DNA from: Acidobacteriaceae bacterium
GTDB lineage: Bacteria > Acidobacteriota > Terriglobia > Terriglobales > Acidobacteriaceae
Assembly (NCBI GenBank): GCA_028283655.1
Contig: JAPWKE010000003.1
Span: 2,914,001 to 2,978,000, forward strand
Direction: 5' to 3'
DNA: 64,000 nucleotides
Each line of letters starts with the position of its first letter. Within the stretch, counting starts at the first letter, position 1. This document shows positions 21,712-60,008 of this stretch, piece after piece. Both the position numbers and the translations under genes were made by a program. The notes below the pieces were generated by a model. It saw nothing but the letters and a program-made list of their open reading frames with translations. It was not told the DNA's origin and searched no databases.

Positions 21712-21743
21712 AAAAGGCCCACGCAATCGCGTGGGCCTTTTTA
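21712..21743 (+). terminator. Terminator between converging lipoprotein and ABC-F genes
   Basis: Perfect 12-bp stem AAAGGCCCACGC/GCGTGGGCCTTT with an AATC loop. TTTT follows on the plus strand and the A-rich left side gives TTTTGC on the minus strand, so it may serve both converging genes. Confidence 0.92.
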
Positions 21744-21775: not shown

Positions 21776-23425
21776 CTACGCTTTCGCGTCAGCCTTGGCC
21801 TTCTGCTGATACTCCTCATACGGCCCGTTGTGGTCCGTAATGTGGAAGTCATCCGGGCCACCTTCAAAGTGCCAGATGCGCGTTCCAACCTCTTCGAGCA
21901 GGTCCTGATCGTGCGTCACGAGGAAGACAGTACCTTCGTACTTCTGCAGCGCCTGGTTCAGCGCATTAATGCTCTCGATATCAAGGTGGTTCGTCGGCTC
22001 GTCAAGAATCAGCACATTCGGCTTCTGCAGCATCAGCTTGCAGAACAGCAGACGGGCCGCCTCGCCGCCCGAAAGCGCCTCGGTCTTCTTGTTGCCTTCT
22101 TCGCCGCGGAACAACATCTGTCCCAGCAGGCCGCGGATATCTTCCTTCGCAACCTTCGGGTCAAAGCTGTGCAGCCACTCCGCCGCCGTTGTCCCCTTCG
22201 GGATCGACGCCGTATGGTCCTGCGCAAAGTAGCCGATATTGGCCTCGTGGCCCCACTTCACAGCACCGTCATCGGCGAAGTTTGCCTCTCGCTCATGCGC
22301 GTCCACGCCCGGGGCGTTCTCCACGATCGACTTGATCAGCGTCGTCTTGCCCTGACCGTTACGGCCAACCAGCACCACCTTGTCGCCGCGCATCACGGCT
22401 GAAGAGAACTTGCGAATCACGTTCTCCACCTTGCCGTCCGGCTGCGTATAGCTCTTCGACAGGTCTTCAATCTCCAGAATGTGCTTACCGCTCGGGCGCT
22501 CCATCTTGAAGCTGATGAACGGGCGCTGAATGTTCGAACGCGCCAGCTCCGTTGTCTGCAAGCGCTCGACTTCCTTCTTACGCGAGTTCACCTGCGACGA
22601 ACGCGTACCGGCCGAGAAGCGCGCGATGAACTCGTTCAACTGGGCGATCTTCTTCTCGCGCTGTTCGTTCTGGCCCTCAATGCGAGCACGCACCTGCGTC
22701 TTCTGCAGCACCATGTCGTCATAGCCACCGGTGTACGTGATGATCGTCTCGTAATCGATGTCCGCAATATGCGTGCACACCGAGTTCAGAAAGTGACGAT
22801 CATGCGAGATCGTGATCACCGATCCGCTGTAGCGGTTCAGAAACGTCTCGAGCCAGTGAATCGAGTCCATATCGAGATGGTTCGTCGGTTCGTCCAGGAA
22901 CAGCGCATCCGGGTTGCCGAAGAGCGCCTGCGCCAGCAGCACACGAACCTTCTGGCCGCCCTGCAACTCGCTCATCTTGCGCTCATGCAGCTCATCAGGG
23001 ATATCAAGCCCCTGCAGCAGGATCGCAGCGTTGGAGTCGGCCTCATAGCCATCTTCCTCGCCCACAATGCCTTCGAGCTCACCGAGGCGGATGCCGTCAT
23101 CATCGGTCATCTCAGCCTTGTTGTAGATCACTTCGCGCTCTTCCAGCGCAGCCCACAACGGCTTGTTGCCCATAATGACCGTATCGAGCACGCGATACGC
23201 GTCAAACTCGTACTGGTTCTGTTTGAGCACGCCAAACTTCTTCGGCCGCACGACATTGCCCTTCTGGGCGTCGAGCTCGCCGGTCAGCACCTTCATAAAG
23301 GTGGATTTACCGGCACCATTCGGGCCGGTCAGGCCATAGCGGCGACCATCGGTAAAGGTAACGGAGACGTCCTCGAAGAGTAGCTTCGAGCCGTAGCGCA
23401 TGGTGACATTCGAGACAGAAATCAT
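21776..23425 (-). CDS. ybiT: ABC-F family ATPase (YbiT-like ribosome-associated)
   Basis: 549 residues with two ABC domains in tandem and no membrane segments. First domain: Walker A GPNGAGKST, signature LQGGQKVR, Walker B LFLDEPTNHLD. Second domain: Walker A GRNGQGKTT, signature LSGGEAARL, Walker B LILDEPTNHLD. The linker (about 245-325) contains the charged helical region that reaches the ribosomal P-site in this family. The N-terminus ISVSNVTMRYGSKLLFEDVSV, the VLDTVIMGNKPLW segment and the ISHDRHFLNSVCTHIADIDY motif match the YbiT subgroup. ABC-F proteins act on translating ribosomes; the exact role of YbiT is not settled. It converges on the lipoprotein gene, with a terminator between. 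Confidence 0.88.
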   Translation of the reverse strand: MISVSNVTMRYGSKLLFEDVSVTFTDGRRYGLTGPNGAGKSTFMKVLTGELDAQKGNVVRPKKFGVLKQNQYEFDAYRVLDTVIMGNKPLWAALEEREVIYNKAEMTDDDGIRLGELEGIVGEEDGYEADSNAAILLQGLDIPDELHERKMSELQGGQKVRVLLAQALFGNPDALFLDEPTNHLDMDSIHWLETFLNRYSGSVITISHDRHFLNSVCTHIADIDYETIITYTGGYDDMVLQKTQVRARIEGQNEQREKKIAQLNEFIARFSAGTRSSQVNSRKKEVERLQTTELARSNIQRPFISFKMERPSGKHILEIEDLSKSYTQPDGKVENVIRKFSSAVMRGDKVVLVGRNGQGKTTLIKSIVENAPGVDAHEREANFADDGAVKWGHEANIGYFAQDHTASIPKGTTAAEWLHSFDPKVAKEDIRGLLGQMLFRGEEGNKKTEALSGGEAARLLFCKLMLQKPNVLILDEPTNHLDIESINALNQALQKYEGTVFLVTHDQDLLEEVGTRIWHFEGGPDDFHITDHNGPYEEYQQKAKADAKA

Positions 23426-23612: not shown

Positions 23613-24854
23613 CTAAGCCCGCACCCGCAGCGAAAGCGGCAGCCACAAAGCAAACGTCGACCCTCGACGTTTGCCGCTCATACGGCTACGCGCTTCGATA
23701 GACCCACCATGCTGCGCCGCGATCTGTCGCGAGACCCAGAGCCCCAACCCCGTACCTTGAATATCCTTCGTCGTAAAAAACGCCTCGAACGCGTGCGCCA
23801 GCGTCTCCGCAGACATCCCGCAGCCGCCGTCGGCAACCGTAATCCGCACACCCTCTTCGCCGGTCGACCAGCGCGTGGCCTTCGCTGCCCGCACCGTCAG
23901 CGTCCCACTCGCCCGCATCGCATCCACCGCGTTACCCACCAGGCTGTTCAGCAGCTGTCGAATCTCCCCCTCATAGCAGGTGAGTTGCAGCCCCGCGGAC
24001 AACCGCTGGTCTACGCAAATATCGAAGTTCTTGAAGCGCGCCTCAAATAGAGTCATGGCGTCCTCAACAAGCTTCACCACCGCAATCCTGGTCGGCTTTG
24101 TAGACTGCCGGTGGAAGCGAAGCGTATGCGTCGCCACCGTAGCCACCCGCGACAACTCCGTGTCGGCAGTCTCCAGGTACGCCCGCGTCTCAGGCTTCAG
24201 CGACTCATCCAGTCGCGCGAGGTAAAGCAGGTTCGTCACCGCAGCCAACGGGTTATTGATCTCATGCGAAAGCGACGAGGCCAACCGCCCTACCGCAGCC
24301 AGCTTTTCAGCCGTCTGTACGGCAAGCGCCGCCTTCTCGTTTTCAATCAGCTTCAGCCGCAACTCCATCTGCGACATCACCTGCCGCGCCAGCGCTTCCA
24401 GAGCATGTAACTGCTTCTGCTCCAGCGTCCTGGGCTTCGAATCGAACACACAAACCGTGCCAAGGATATGACCGTTCGGCGCAACCAGCGGCGCTCCGGC
24501 GTAGAACCGGATCTGCGGACCGCCCGTCACAAAAGGATTCGCACAAAACCGTGGATCAAGCAGCGTGTCTTCGATCACCATCGGTGTCGACTGCAACACA
24601 GCACACGCGCAGAACCCATCGTCCCGCCCGGTTTCATTTGTTCCAAAGCCGACTTCCGACTTGAACCACTGCCGGTCGCGATCGACCAGCGTAATCGTGG
24701 AGTAAGGCGCCGCGCAGATATAAGCAGCTATTTCAGTGATATCATCAAACGCCTGTTCCGGCGGAGTGTCGAGGATCGCATACCGATTCAGCGTCGCCAC
24801 TCGCTCAGCATCATGCTGAGGAACTGGAGCTGAAAATCGTGTGTAAGCGTCCAT
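23613..24854 (-). CDS. Cytoplasmic GAF-domain histidine kinase
   Basis: 413 residues. An N-terminal GAF domain (about 20-165; NRYAILDTPPEQAFDDITEIAAYIC, and the motif FCACAVLQSTPMVIEDTLLDPRF common to redox- or ligand-sensing GAFs) is followed by a kinase core: H-box RLASSLSHEINNPLAAVTNL with His197, N-box LLNSLVGNAVDAM, G-boxes VADGGCGM and GTGLGLWVSRQI. No membrane segment. The GAF contains several Cys (FCACAV, FCANPF) that might bind a cofactor, but this is inference. No partner response regulator is adjacent; the cluster at 16271-19711 is the nearest. It ends about 190 bp past the ABC-F start. Confidence 0.9.
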   Translation of the reverse strand: MDAYTRFSAPVPQHDAERVATLNRYAILDTPPEQAFDDITEIAAYICAAPYSTITLVDRDRQWFKSEVGFGTNETGRDDGFCACAVLQSTPMVIEDTLLDPRFCANPFVTGGPQIRFYAGAPLVAPNGHILGTVCVFDSKPRTLEQKQLHALEALARQVMSQMELRLKLIENEKAALAVQTAEKLAAVGRLASSLSHEINNPLAAVTNLLYLARLDESLKPETRAYLETADTELSRVATVATHTLRFHRQSTKPTRIAVVKLVEDAMTLFEARFKNFDICVDQRLSAGLQLTCYEGEIRQLLNSLVGNAVDAMRASGTLTVRAAKATRWSTGEEGVRITVADGGCGMSAETLAHAFEAFFTTKDIQGTGLGLWVSRQIAAQHGGSIEARSRMSGKRRGSTFALWLPLSLRVRA

Positions 24855-24989
24855 AGAGTTCCTTTATTGGAACATGCAAAACATTCCAAAGGGAACCCTC
24901 AATCTTCGTCCCTGCAACCGGTCGGTTGCCAGAGAATTCATCACACTACATCGCGTCGCTTCGCCTTTCAACATGGCGAACGTCGCCCC

Positions 24990-25026
24990 AAGGCCTTTCC
25001 CTCAGCCACAGCAAGGGAAAGGCCTT
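24990..25026. repeat. 13-bp inverted repeat at the mini-protein stop codon
   Basis: Perfect stem AAGGCCTTTCCCT (24990-25002) / AGGGAAAGGCCTT (25014-25026) with an 11-nt loop. The right arm overlaps the TAA of the small ORF at 25025. The T-run on the minus strand is weak, so it may end or stabilise the transcript rather than be a classic terminator. Confidence 0.7.
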
Positions 25027-25123
25027 AGTTCATACAACCATCGACATCGTTATCGGCAGCATCGCCAAGCAGGTACTGACCAACGACAAGGGCCACAGGC
25101 AGAAGGAACATTACGAGATTCAT
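25025..25123 (-). CDS. Candidate 32-residue membrane mini-protein
   Basis: Hand translation: MNLVMFLLPVALVVGQYLLG, then an acidic tail DAADNDVDGCMN. One clear transmembrane helix (about 3-20) and a short acidic end with one Cys. It has an excellent ribosome site (AAGGAG 8 nt before ATG). A hairpin overlaps its stop and another lies upstream (25179-25212). Together these are good signs of a real small gene. It is about 120 bp after the SDR gene on the same strand and could be its last cistron or a separate unit. No homologue is known to me; small single-helix proteins often regulate a membrane partner, which is inference. Confidence 0.62.
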   Translation of the reverse strand: MNLVMFLLPVALVVGQYLLGDAADNDVDGCMN

Positions 25124-25178
25124 GGAGTCGTCTCCTTTTCTTTCAGGTTGAGAGAGCGTGTGCTCTTGTTGATACTGA

Positions 25179-25212
25179 CGCGGCGGATCGAAAAATATTG
25201 CGGTCCGCCGCG
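25179..25212 (-). repeat. Hairpin between SDR gene and mini-protein
   Basis: 9-bp perfect inverted repeat CGCGGCGGA (25179-25187) / TCCGCCGCG (25204-25212) with an AT-rich loop. There is no T-run, so it is more likely an mRNA-stability or attenuation structure than a terminator. Confidence 0.55.
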
Positions 25213-25241
25213 CAAAATATCTGTTGAAACTTCTTAGCGAG

Positions 25242-25991
25242 TTAGCGAGCGCCGCCTGCAGCTTGCAGCAGCGATCCGTTCACCCAGCGCGCATCTTCCG
25301 ACACCACGAACGCCACCGCATCAGCGATATCGTCCGGACGTCCCGCGCGCTTCAGCGGTGTCTGAGAAACAGCCCAATCCTCAAACTGACCGCCAGCGAA
25401 GCCCGCAGCATGAGAACCTTCGGTCACCACAAAGCCCGGATTCACTGCGTTCACGCGAATCTTACGATCGCCCAACTCTTTCGCCAGCACGCGAGTAATA
25501 GCGTCCACAGCACCCTTTGTCGCCGTGTACACCGACGAGCCCGGAGGCGTGATCTCACTCACCAACGAACCGATGTTCACAATGCTGCCACCTTCAGCCG
25601 GGAAGTACTTCAATGCGGCCTTCGTCGTCAGCAACAGGCCCTTCACGTTCGTATCGAAGATCCAGTCAATGTGCTCTTCGGTCACGTCCGTGATCGGCTT
25701 CATCTCGTAGACACCAGCGTTGTTCACCAACACATCTACCTTGCCGAAAGCTTTCGTCGCTGCTGCAAAGATCGCATCAATGTCGGCCTGCTTGGTCACC
25801 GATCCACCAGCGACGACAGCCTTGCCGCCTGCTGCTTCAATCTCTGCAACCACCTTCTCCGCGCCTGCCTTATCCGACGCGTAGTTCACAACGACGCTTG
25901 CGCCTTCCGCGCCCAGCTTCTTCGCAATCGCTGCGCCAATGCCCTTTGACGCGCCCGTAACCACCGCTACCTTACCCGTAAGCTTTGCCAT
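25242..25991 (-). CDS. Short-chain dehydrogenase/reductase
   Basis: 249 residues from the ATG at 25989-25991 (MAKLTGKVAVVTGASKG), preceded by GGAG at good spacing. A longer frame upstream runs through the operator and is rejected. Classical SDR: cofactor motif TGASKGIG (12-19), NNAG (90-93), catalytic Ser142, Tyr155 and Lys159 (SSVYTATKG). The Asn-Tyr-Ala-Ser-Asp after strand 2 (VVVNYASDK) suggests NADP preference, by family rule. The substrate is unknown; the sequence resembles the FabG/glucose-dehydrogenase-like group. Its promoter region carries overlapping palindromes and an ArsR-type gene lies upstream, so it is probably controlled by that regulator. Confidence 0.92.
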   Translation of the reverse strand: MAKLTGKVAVVTGASKGIGAAIAKKLGAEGASVVVNYASDKAGAEKVVAEIEAAGGKAVVAGGSVTKQADIDAIFAAATKAFGKVDVLVNNAGVYEMKPITDVTEEHIDWIFDTNVKGLLLTTKAALKYFPAEGGSIVNIGSLVSEITPPGSSVYTATKGAVDAITRVLAKELGDRKIRVNAVNPGFVVTEGSHAAGFAGGQFEDWAVSQTPLKRAGRPDDIADAVAFVVSEDARWVNGSLLQAAGGAR

Positions 25992-26176: not shown

Positions 26177-26212
26177 TTGCTTCTCGTTACAGAGTCTTGC
26201 TTCCAGTTACAG
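26177..26212 (-). repeat. Two 16-bp direct repeats with 20-bp period at the arsR stop
   Basis: TTGCTTCTCGTTACAG (26177-26192) and TTGCTTCCAGTTACAG (26197-26212), 14 of 16 identical, spaced two helical turns apart. The second copy overlaps the stop codon of the ArsR gene. Possible protein-binding tandem site in the arsR-SDR spacer. Confidence 0.55.
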
Positions 26213-26509
26213 GCTTGAGAGCTCTGCCAGGTACGCGTCCCACACATCGCGACGCAGTGTGAGCTTCGCCGTGCGGCCTTCGCGGGCCACATCCACCAGC
26301 CCCGACTCCTGCAGCTCTTTCAGGTGGTGCGAAATCGTCGCCGGGGAAAGGCACTCATGCGCCTTCAGCATCGAGCACGGCGTATAACCGCTCTCGCACT
26401 TATTCTTCGCCACCTGCTCCAGAATGCCAAAGCGCTTCGGGTCAGAAAGAACGCGAGCAATCTGCTCGAACTGTTCCTGCGAAAGCCGGGTTTTCTGCGC
26501 CGTAGGCAT
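26207..26509 (-). CDS. ArsR-family winged-helix repressor
   Basis: 100 residues. Winged helix-turn-helix of the ArsR/SmtB type: FEQIARVLSDPKRFGILEQVA (about 14-34), recognition-helix region LSPATISHHLKELQESGLVD (about 54-73), wing REGRTAKLTL (about 76-85). Two Cys in the middle (CESGYTPCSML) and one in HECLSP could form a metal or redox sensor, but the classic metal-site ELCVCDL is absent, so the inducer is not clear. It lies upstream of, and codirectional with, the SDR gene whose promoter holds palindromes, a typical regulator-target layout. Confidence 0.9.
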   Translation of the reverse strand: MPTAQKTRLSQEQFEQIARVLSDPKRFGILEQVAKNKCESGYTPCSMLKAHECLSPATISHHLKELQESGLVDVAREGRTAKLTLRRDVWDAYLAELSSL

Positions 26510-33808: not shown

Positions 33809-33824
33809 CGTCACAACAACAGAA

Positions 33825-33860
33825 CAGAAACGCCCCGCGAACACCGGGGCGTTTCTGTTT
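33825..33860 (+). terminator. Terminator after the DUF3857 gene
   Basis: Perfect stem CAGAAACGCCCC(G)/(C)GGGGCGTTTCTG with a short loop, followed by TTTCC. About 20 bp past the stop. Confidence 0.9.
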
Positions 33861-34645: not shown

Positions 34646-34662
34646 CTCCTCTTCAAGCCAAA

Positions 34663-34699
34663 GAAATCGGCCACCTCGATTGAGGTGGCCGATTTCTTT
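34663..34699 (+). terminator. Terminator of the superoxide dismutase gene
   Basis: Perfect 15-bp stem GAAATCGGCCACCTC/GAGGTGGCCGATTTC with a GATT loop and a trailing T stretch. Confidence 0.94.
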
Positions 34700-35005
34700 G
34701 CGACACGCATGGCTTTACCGTCGCCCATCTGACCTCTTTATGGCTGGGTATTTCTCTTGCTGACAATACAGCTTCGCCGCTTTTCCTGAACCCTCTCGTG
34801 TTGCGGCACAACCTGCACGATCACCAGTTAGGGCGGCGCAGCTTCTGAGTCTTACCGAGGAAGCAAGGGGTAGCCCTTTGTGGCCTTGAGGAAGAAGCAG
34901 GCGTCAAGCCTAATCCTTAGGAAGGGAGCAGTGGGCTTCAGCCCACTGAACTCCTCCCCCGACAGATGGCCCTTTAGCGCCGGGCTCTCTTGAACGAGCC
35001 CCACG
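34700..35005. repeat. Intergenic region with GGGCTTCAGCCC palindrome
   Basis: No gene seen. It holds AGTGGGC-TTCA-GCCCACT at 34930-34947, the same hairpin core found at 11115-11132 and 11154-11167, and a second imperfect hairpin GGGCTC...GAGCCC near 34982-34999 close to the TPR gene stop. Confidence 0.6.
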
Positions 35006-51939: not shown

Positions 51940-51970
51940 CAGAAGCGGCCGAGTGATCGGCCGCTTCTGT
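51940..51970 (+). terminator. Terminator of valS
   Basis: Perfect 13-bp stem CAGAAGCGGCCGA/TCGGCCGCTTCTG with a GTGA loop, 14 bp past the stop. Confidence 0.92.
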
Positions 51971-56974: not shown

Positions 56975-57000
56975 TGCTCTGAGATTCAAGCGCAAAAATA

Positions 57001-57038
57001 ACGAGGAGCACGGAGGTATTCGTGCTCCTCGTTGTTTT
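57001..57038 (+). terminator. Terminator after rlmD built from a CACGGAG unit
   Basis: Perfect stem ACGAGGAGCACG/CGTGCTCCTCGT with loop GAGGTATT, followed by TGTTTTTG. The left arm and loop contain CACGGAGG, the core of the repeat family at 44322 and 46941, so a repeat copy appears to serve as terminator. Confidence 0.85.
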
Positions 57039-59976: not shown

Positions 59977-60008
59977 CACAAGGGCAGAGCCGAAGCTCTG
60001 CCCTTGTG
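59977..60008. terminator. Convergent terminator hairpin, comEC and lipoprotein genes
   Basis: Perfect 14-bp stem CACAAGGGCAGAGC/GCTCTGCCCTTGTG with a CGAA loop. Weak T-runs both ways. It sits between the converging comEC and lipoprotein stops. Confidence 0.75.

Follow-up and report, generated by a model that had tools for sequence, protein, structure and literature searches.

Introduction

Type I toxins and DinQ are built as a short hydrophobic helix with a charged tail. Regulation of the ABC-F gene msrD is said to act through a leader peptide. DinQ is reported to be a peptide with a single transmembrane segment, toxic and accompanied by antisense RNAs (PMC3567139), regulation of msrD is reported (PMC10314930), and the motif of CydX is given as YxxWxxGx15E/D (PMC4325964). 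The microgene compared here with these systems lies in a 64,000-nt stretch of contig JAPWKE010000003.1 (positions 2,914,001-2,978,000; assembly GCA_028283655.1, Acidobacteriaceae bacterium), hereafter the window. G000 denotes the window genome, other G-numbers denote the genomes of relatives, and L-numbers the loci compared.

The open reading frame and its conservation

The frame and its ribosome site are placed as follows.

25025..25123, minus strand: microgene, 32 amino acids from an ATG start, with one hydrophobic helix (residues 2-20, approximately) and a short Cys30-bearing tail
25132..25137, minus strand (read 25137-25132): Shine-Dalgarno sequence AAGGAG, separated from the ATG by 8 nt

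The stop codon TAA occupies positions 25027-25025 of the minus strand. A first-pass annotation of the window had proposed both the 32-residue frame with its single hydrophobic helix and the AAGGAG 8 nt ahead of the ATG; the ribosome site was read directly in the sequence, and the frame is present as described, its coding capacity and its helix being supported by the sequence. Both strands of the window were scanned for frames of 20-50 amino acids that start with ATG behind a Shine-Dalgarno-like motif and have a 17-residue mean hydropathy above 1.8. The microgene, with a value of 2.31, was the only such frame in the window, and 20 dinucleotide shuffles of the window, taken as a control for chance, yielded one in total. 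The homologues are likewise preceded by Shine-Dalgarno-like motifs in the relatives' sequences that were read. The overlapping frame on the opposite strand (24874-25227, 117 amino acids) was rejected as a gene, with no match at E ≤ 1e-8 in loci L047-L055, L057 and L058.

A single-sequence search of 101 genomes matched strongly in G024 (81%) and in G008 (72%), weakly in G017 and G018, and a profile of seven rows run on 300 genomes of the family found further homologues. With a ten-row profile, 10 of the 28 genomes of the genus matched at E ≤ 2.6e-12, the next match being at 0.0135, and the microgene was not found by this profile in the other 18. Searching the class (399 genomes) added one member, G616 (E 3.5e-6), from another genus of the same family, whose microgene has a start codon, a ribosome site and the same neighbours as the others; the set analysed thus comprises 11 members, ten from the genus plus G616. 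When the profile including G616 was run on 398 family genomes, 13 had matches at E ≤ 0.01, namely the 11 members, G033 and G036. The match in G033 (E 4.1e-4) was set aside as a frame without a start codon and that in G036 (E 0.0085) as falling within a long membrane-protein reading frame. A weak match in G170 (4.7e-4 in the 300-genome profile search) has an in-frame ATG with GGAG ahead of it; lying on a contig without the neighbour genes of the window and absent among the matches of the 398-genome search, it was set aside, though not strictly excluded. Further weak matches at class level in the 399-genome search had E values of 0.007-0.045. Each genome holds one convincing copy, at a single locus, and one carrier among the relatives is a named strain, Bryocella elongata DSM 22489 (contig NZ_FNVA01000007.1). 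On an ABC-F tree of 29 genomes, whose deep branches are weakly supported, the presence of the microgene requires at least three changes.

Library searches returned little. Scanning four of the 11 members against Pfam and NCBIfam gave no family at E ≤ 1, and a profile search of PDB sequences had its best match at E 1.2 and the next at 4.8. A viral origin was considered and discarded: a degenerate DNA pattern, strict enough to miss several known members, had no match in viral_contigs; the same pattern matched two contigs in genome_contigs. Within the portions of the small-protein literature retrieved under Acidobacteria, ArsR/SDR or the genus names, no work on the microgene was found.

The first-pass annotation had named lack of conservation of the frame in relatives, or equal substitution rates at all codon positions, as the observations that would speak against a gene. 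The four close pairs of homologues have instead an excess of third-position differences: 14 of 24 for G000-G024 (P 0.01, pN/pS 0.25), 19 of 28 for G000-G008 (P 0.0002, pN/pS 0.21), 16 of 28 for G024-G008 (P 0.0082, pN/pS 0.44) and 9 of 12 for G006-G014 (P 0.0039, pN/pS 0.14). Values of pN/pS were computed for 45 pairs, G616 being left out, and the case for coding uses these four; the remaining 41 divergent pairs range from 0.49 to 1.09 (highest for G018-G027) with silent sites near saturation, and were not used. Very probably, then, the ORF at 25025-25123 is a genuine microgene that codes for protein. From sequence comparison its frame is seen to be under purifying selection and to have been kept at one locus with an SDR gene and an ABC-F gene. 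Sequence alone can in this way confirm the coding nature of a 32-residue gene that matches nothing in the libraries.

The membrane helix and the tail

That the product is a single-pass membrane microprotein is well supported by sequence. The 11 members are 32-41 residues long. Met1 and Pro9 are invariant, position 17 is aromatic throughout (tyrosine in ten members, phenylalanine in one), and Val13 is conserved in ten. Also in 10 of 11, positions 11 and 15 are both alanine, serine or glycine, position 16 is polar (glutamine, glutamate, asparagine or lysine), and there are one to three cysteines, of which the last is no more than three residues from the C-terminus. Tryptophan occurs in no member. 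Membrane helices pack against each other through arrangements of this sort, small-xxx-small accompanied by a polar residue. AlphaFold2 gave a single helix over residues 3-30 (mean pLDDT 78.5, pTM 0.34).

The positive-inside rule favours a positively charged tail in the cytoplasm with the N-terminus outside. Since the N-terminus is devoid of positive charge and lysine or arginine follows the helix in 10 of the 11 members, the family would be oriented N-terminus out with the cysteine-bearing tail in the cytoplasm. The window protein is the exception among the 11, its tail having four acidic and no basic residues, and its own topology is therefore ambiguous. The acidic tail pointed out in the first-pass annotation is thus present in the window protein but is not a trait of the family, as in six of the 11 tails the count of lysine and arginine equals or exceeds that of aspartate and glutamate.

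The gene neighbourhood

The genes around the microgene in the window are all encoded on its strand.

26207..26509, minus strand: ArsR-family repressor, ahead of the SDR gene (PF01022/PF12840)
25242..25991, minus strand: SDR oxidoreductase of the glucose-1-dehydrogenase-like subfamily (PF13561 and NCBIfam NF005559 above cut-off)
23613..24854, minus strand: GAF histidine kinase, between microgene and ABC-F gene in the window genome only
21776..23425, minus strand: YbiT-like ABC-F ATPase (best NCBIfam model NF011646, 'ABC-F family ATPase', at 607.9 of 762 bits and so below cut-off)

The order shared among the loci, on one strand and with local losses and insertions, is ArsR, SDR, microgene, YbiT-like ABC-F. 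None of the three shared neighbours is a membrane protein by family. The SDR gene lies directly upstream on the same strand at 10 of 11 loci, with 88-201 nt from its end to the microgene ATG. At the locus of G016 the SDR gene is absent and ArsR is kept, the nearest SDR relative being on another contig; the microgene loci of G006 and G014 yielded no ArsR match, theirs lying elsewhere in the genome. The histidine kinase does not belong to this shared context, because it adjoins the ORF in the window genome alone; the kinase matches seen elsewhere among the loci have 35-39% identity and fall on different genes. A link with the kinase was accordingly rejected. The first-pass annotation, which had put the microgene between the SDR and kinase genes and proposed conservation of synteny as a check, described the window correctly; its SDR side extends to the relatives, together with a shared ABC-F gene downstream, and its kinase side does not. 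In G024 the locus looks mosaic, with SDR (92%) and ArsR (83%) near those of the window and an ABC-F that groups with that of G015 (support 96/98).

Proximity to the ABC-F gene raises the question of a leader peptide, that is, of translation of the microgene controlling the ABC-F gene downstream, as for antibiotic-resistance ABC-F genes. The ABC-F gene follows within 32-344 nt at 8 of 11 loci, and from the microgene stop to the ABC-F start there are 32 nt in G017 and 56-72 nt in G016, G616, G006 and G014, which speaks for such control. However, the two genes are separated by 1.6 kb in G000, where the histidine kinase intervenes, by 2.6 kb in G024 and by 4.6 kb in G018, and in 18 of the 28 genus genomes the ABC-F gene is present and the microgene was not found. 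In those 18 no ArsR or SDR match was found in an upstream flank of 475-1500 nt, a flank that misses the SDR in G000, G018 and G024 too. Moreover, when the 40 nt upstream of the ABC-F start were read at loci L059-L086, TG(A/C)GAAAAT stood exactly 7 nt before the ATG in 24 of the 28 genus genomes; a −10-like element so near the start codon suggests a leaderless or near-leaderless ABC-F mRNA with its own transcription start. A leader function of this type is, on balance, very improbable. The four genomes without the element at that spacing, G000, G008, G024 and G011, have TAAAAT- or TAGAAT-like sites farther upstream of the ABC-F gene.

Regarding the upstream side, ArsR matches at E ≤ 1e-12 occur in 128 of 398 family genomes, and among the best 30 ArsR loci eight have the microgene; at the other 22 an SDR matched and the filter applied found no microgene (two of these 22 comparison SDRs being just 40-42% identical). 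The ArsR-SDR pair is, by these matches, widespread in the family and mostly without the microgene. Second SDR copies in G006, G014, G015 and G616 are accompanied by no second microgene. Neither ArsR nor SDR is an obligate partner, because the microgene survives without a neighbouring SDR in G016 and without an ArsR match at the locus in G006 and G014, and because the second SDRs lack it. These counts bear on the idea that the microprotein is an anchor or modulator of the SDR, its tail binding the enzyme and carrying it to the membrane. Such a role would agree with the SDR being the upstream neighbour at 10 of 11 loci, and a partnership is hinted at by G016, the only member without an adjoining SDR, which is also the only one that has lost the cysteine, a small residue in position 11 and a polar one in position 16; that coincidence is a single event, and the 22 microgene-less loci with an SDR match speak against the role, to which we give little credence.

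Of 31 ArsR homologues aligned, 30 retain the cysteine at position 45 (alignment count), G015 being the exception; Cys38 and Cys53 of the window ArsR are kept in 3 and 7 of the 31. The single fixed cysteine, located before the recognition helix, might serve thiol or metal sensing.

Transcription signals around the microgene

Inverted repeats stand on both sides of the ORF.

24990-25002 / 25014-25026, minus strand: perfect 13-bp hairpin with an 11-nt loop, overlapping the TAA by two bases and followed by no long T run
25179..25212, minus strand: second hairpin, in the gap between SDR gene and microgene, with 15-nt arms, 87% complementary, and a T-rich loop
25215-25198, minus strand: terminator-like alternative short stem of 5 pairs, then TATTTTT

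The flanking hairpins announced in the first-pass annotation, and specifically the 13-bp inverted repeat overlapping the stop, with perfect arms within 24990-25026, were thus found. Perfect hairpins of at least 13 bp number seven in the window, versus one in all 20 shuffles together; their arms measure 13-19 bp and they lie at 21712-21741, 24990-25026, 33823-33859, 34659-34700, 51940-51969, 57000-57033 and 59977-60008. Those at 21712, 33823 and 34659 stand just beyond the ends of called ORFs, the other three being outside the stretch in which ORFs were called. Because similar hairpins of the window sit past ORF ends, the one at 24990-25026 is read as probably an ordinary 3' end of the microgene transcript. 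Its sequence was not seen in the relatives' sequences that were read.

Folding of the 110 nt that follow the SDR stop was compared with 200 shuffles: in the window, G024, G008, G018 and G027 no shuffle reached so low an energy; in G006, G616, G017 and G015 between one and six of 200 shuffles fold as well, and in G014, 18 of 200. The best stem after the SDR gene in G015 is weak. The window, G024 and G008 have a similar T-rich loop (GCAAT...), on a stem whose sequence differs in G008. As to structured RNA, the one Rfam match reached 15 of 50 bits, far under the gathering score, and was dismissed. A stem of at least 8 pairs with TTTT on its 3' side follows the SDR gene at none of 10 loci with the microgene versus 9 of 22 without it (Fisher P 0.03), a contrast chosen post hoc among related rows and with a criterion of 8 pairs that leaves out the 5-pair stem at 25215-25198. 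An alternative terminator may make use of the T run within the hairpin loop. Between 24800 and 25300 the minus strand showed no promoter-like site by a consensus that may not suit this phylum. On the 88-201 nt from SDR end to ATG, the empty promoter scan and the TTTT contrast, we lean to transcription reading through from the SDR gene into the microgene; this is a lean rather than a result, because the terminator-like site opposes it and the promoter consensus may be unsuited to the phylum.

The same signals bear on a different arrangement, in which the microprotein would be a CydX-like accessory subunit of a membrane complex encoded elsewhere, for example a respiratory oxidase or a transporter, and the ArsR-SDR locus merely its residence, with transcription from a promoter of its own. 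The terminator-like site after the SDR gene fits a separate transcript, and few fixed helix residues with a variable tail are the pattern reported for CydX (PMC4325964); but no such complex is found among the shared neighbours, unlike the case of CydX, and the empty minus-strand scan of 24800-25300 gives the microgene no evident promoter. We regard the arrangement as unlikely, if worth keeping in view.

A membrane-active stress peptide or toxin, depolarising in the manner of type I toxins or DinQ and repressed by an antisense RNA, would fit the size and the single helix with a charged tail. The simple consensus scan found no promoter-like site on the opposite strand directed across the ORF: the two sites on that strand, at 25148-25196, point away from it. 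No Rfam match near the gathering score accompanies the gene, which is present as a single convincing copy in each carrier, confined to one locus, and its homologues keep specific residues and not just hydrophobicity. An activity of this type seems improbable.

A model for the microprotein

We propose that the product of the microgene is a conserved microprotein that crosses the inner membrane once, is probably made from the last cistron of the ArsR-SDR unit and packs its helix against a partner helix; we would put the probability of this reading, built from sequence, at roughly 0.45. In the model, transcription would read through the hairpin after the SDR gene, so that the level of the microgene follows the ArsR repressor. 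The protein would then be inserted with its N-terminus out and its cysteine-bearing tail in the cytoplasm. Here, the conserved face of the helix, formed by the small residues 11 and 15, polar 16, aromatic 17 and Pro9, would bind either a second copy of the microprotein or some larger membrane protein whose gene lies elsewhere. The candidate partners are, in decreasing order, an unlinked membrane complex, the microprotein itself and the SDR. The product may be, as the first-pass annotation suggested, a regulator or assembly factor of a membrane partner. That the cysteine tail binds the SDR or senses thiols or metals is a guess. A bolder proposal, a thiol- or metal-responsive anchor in which an ArsR-controlled SDR and the Cys-tailed microprotein are made together and stress makes the membrane retain the enzyme or let it go, is in our judgement improbable; if true, it would constitute a family without known relatives.

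Comparison with known systems

Like msrD-type ABC-F leaders, the microgene is a short frame that lies ahead of an ABC-F gene and is read in the same direction. It differs from them in a distance that varies from 32 nt to 4.6 kb and in the 18 of 28 genomes with the ABC-F gene alone; at three of the 11 loci, the window included, it does not lie directly before that gene (1.6-4.6 kb), as a leader would. The microprotein resembles type I toxins and DinQ as a short hydrophobic helix with a charged tail, and differs from them in its single locus and in the residue-specific character of its conservation; neither an antisense promoter nor an Rfam match above gathering was found for it. From CydX and CydZ it is set apart by its location, which is not beside cydAB but among ArsR, SDR and ABC-F genes, and by its residues: the CydX motif is absent, as is the tryptophan of CydZ, none of the 11 members having tryptophan.

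The microgene adds a defined, selected microprotein family to the Acidobacteriota, a phylum for which no microprotein study was found in the portions of the literature retrieved. Its synteny allows the gene to be tracked across species, one carrier being a named strain. CydX and CydZ (PMC4325964) are both short, with one membrane helix, as is the microprotein described here, which also shares with CydX the few fixed residues and the variable tail and with CydZ a ribosome site of its own. In comparison with these systems, the microgene represents a real, apparently new and lineage-restricted family of an ordinary kind, its newness lying in the family and not in the type.
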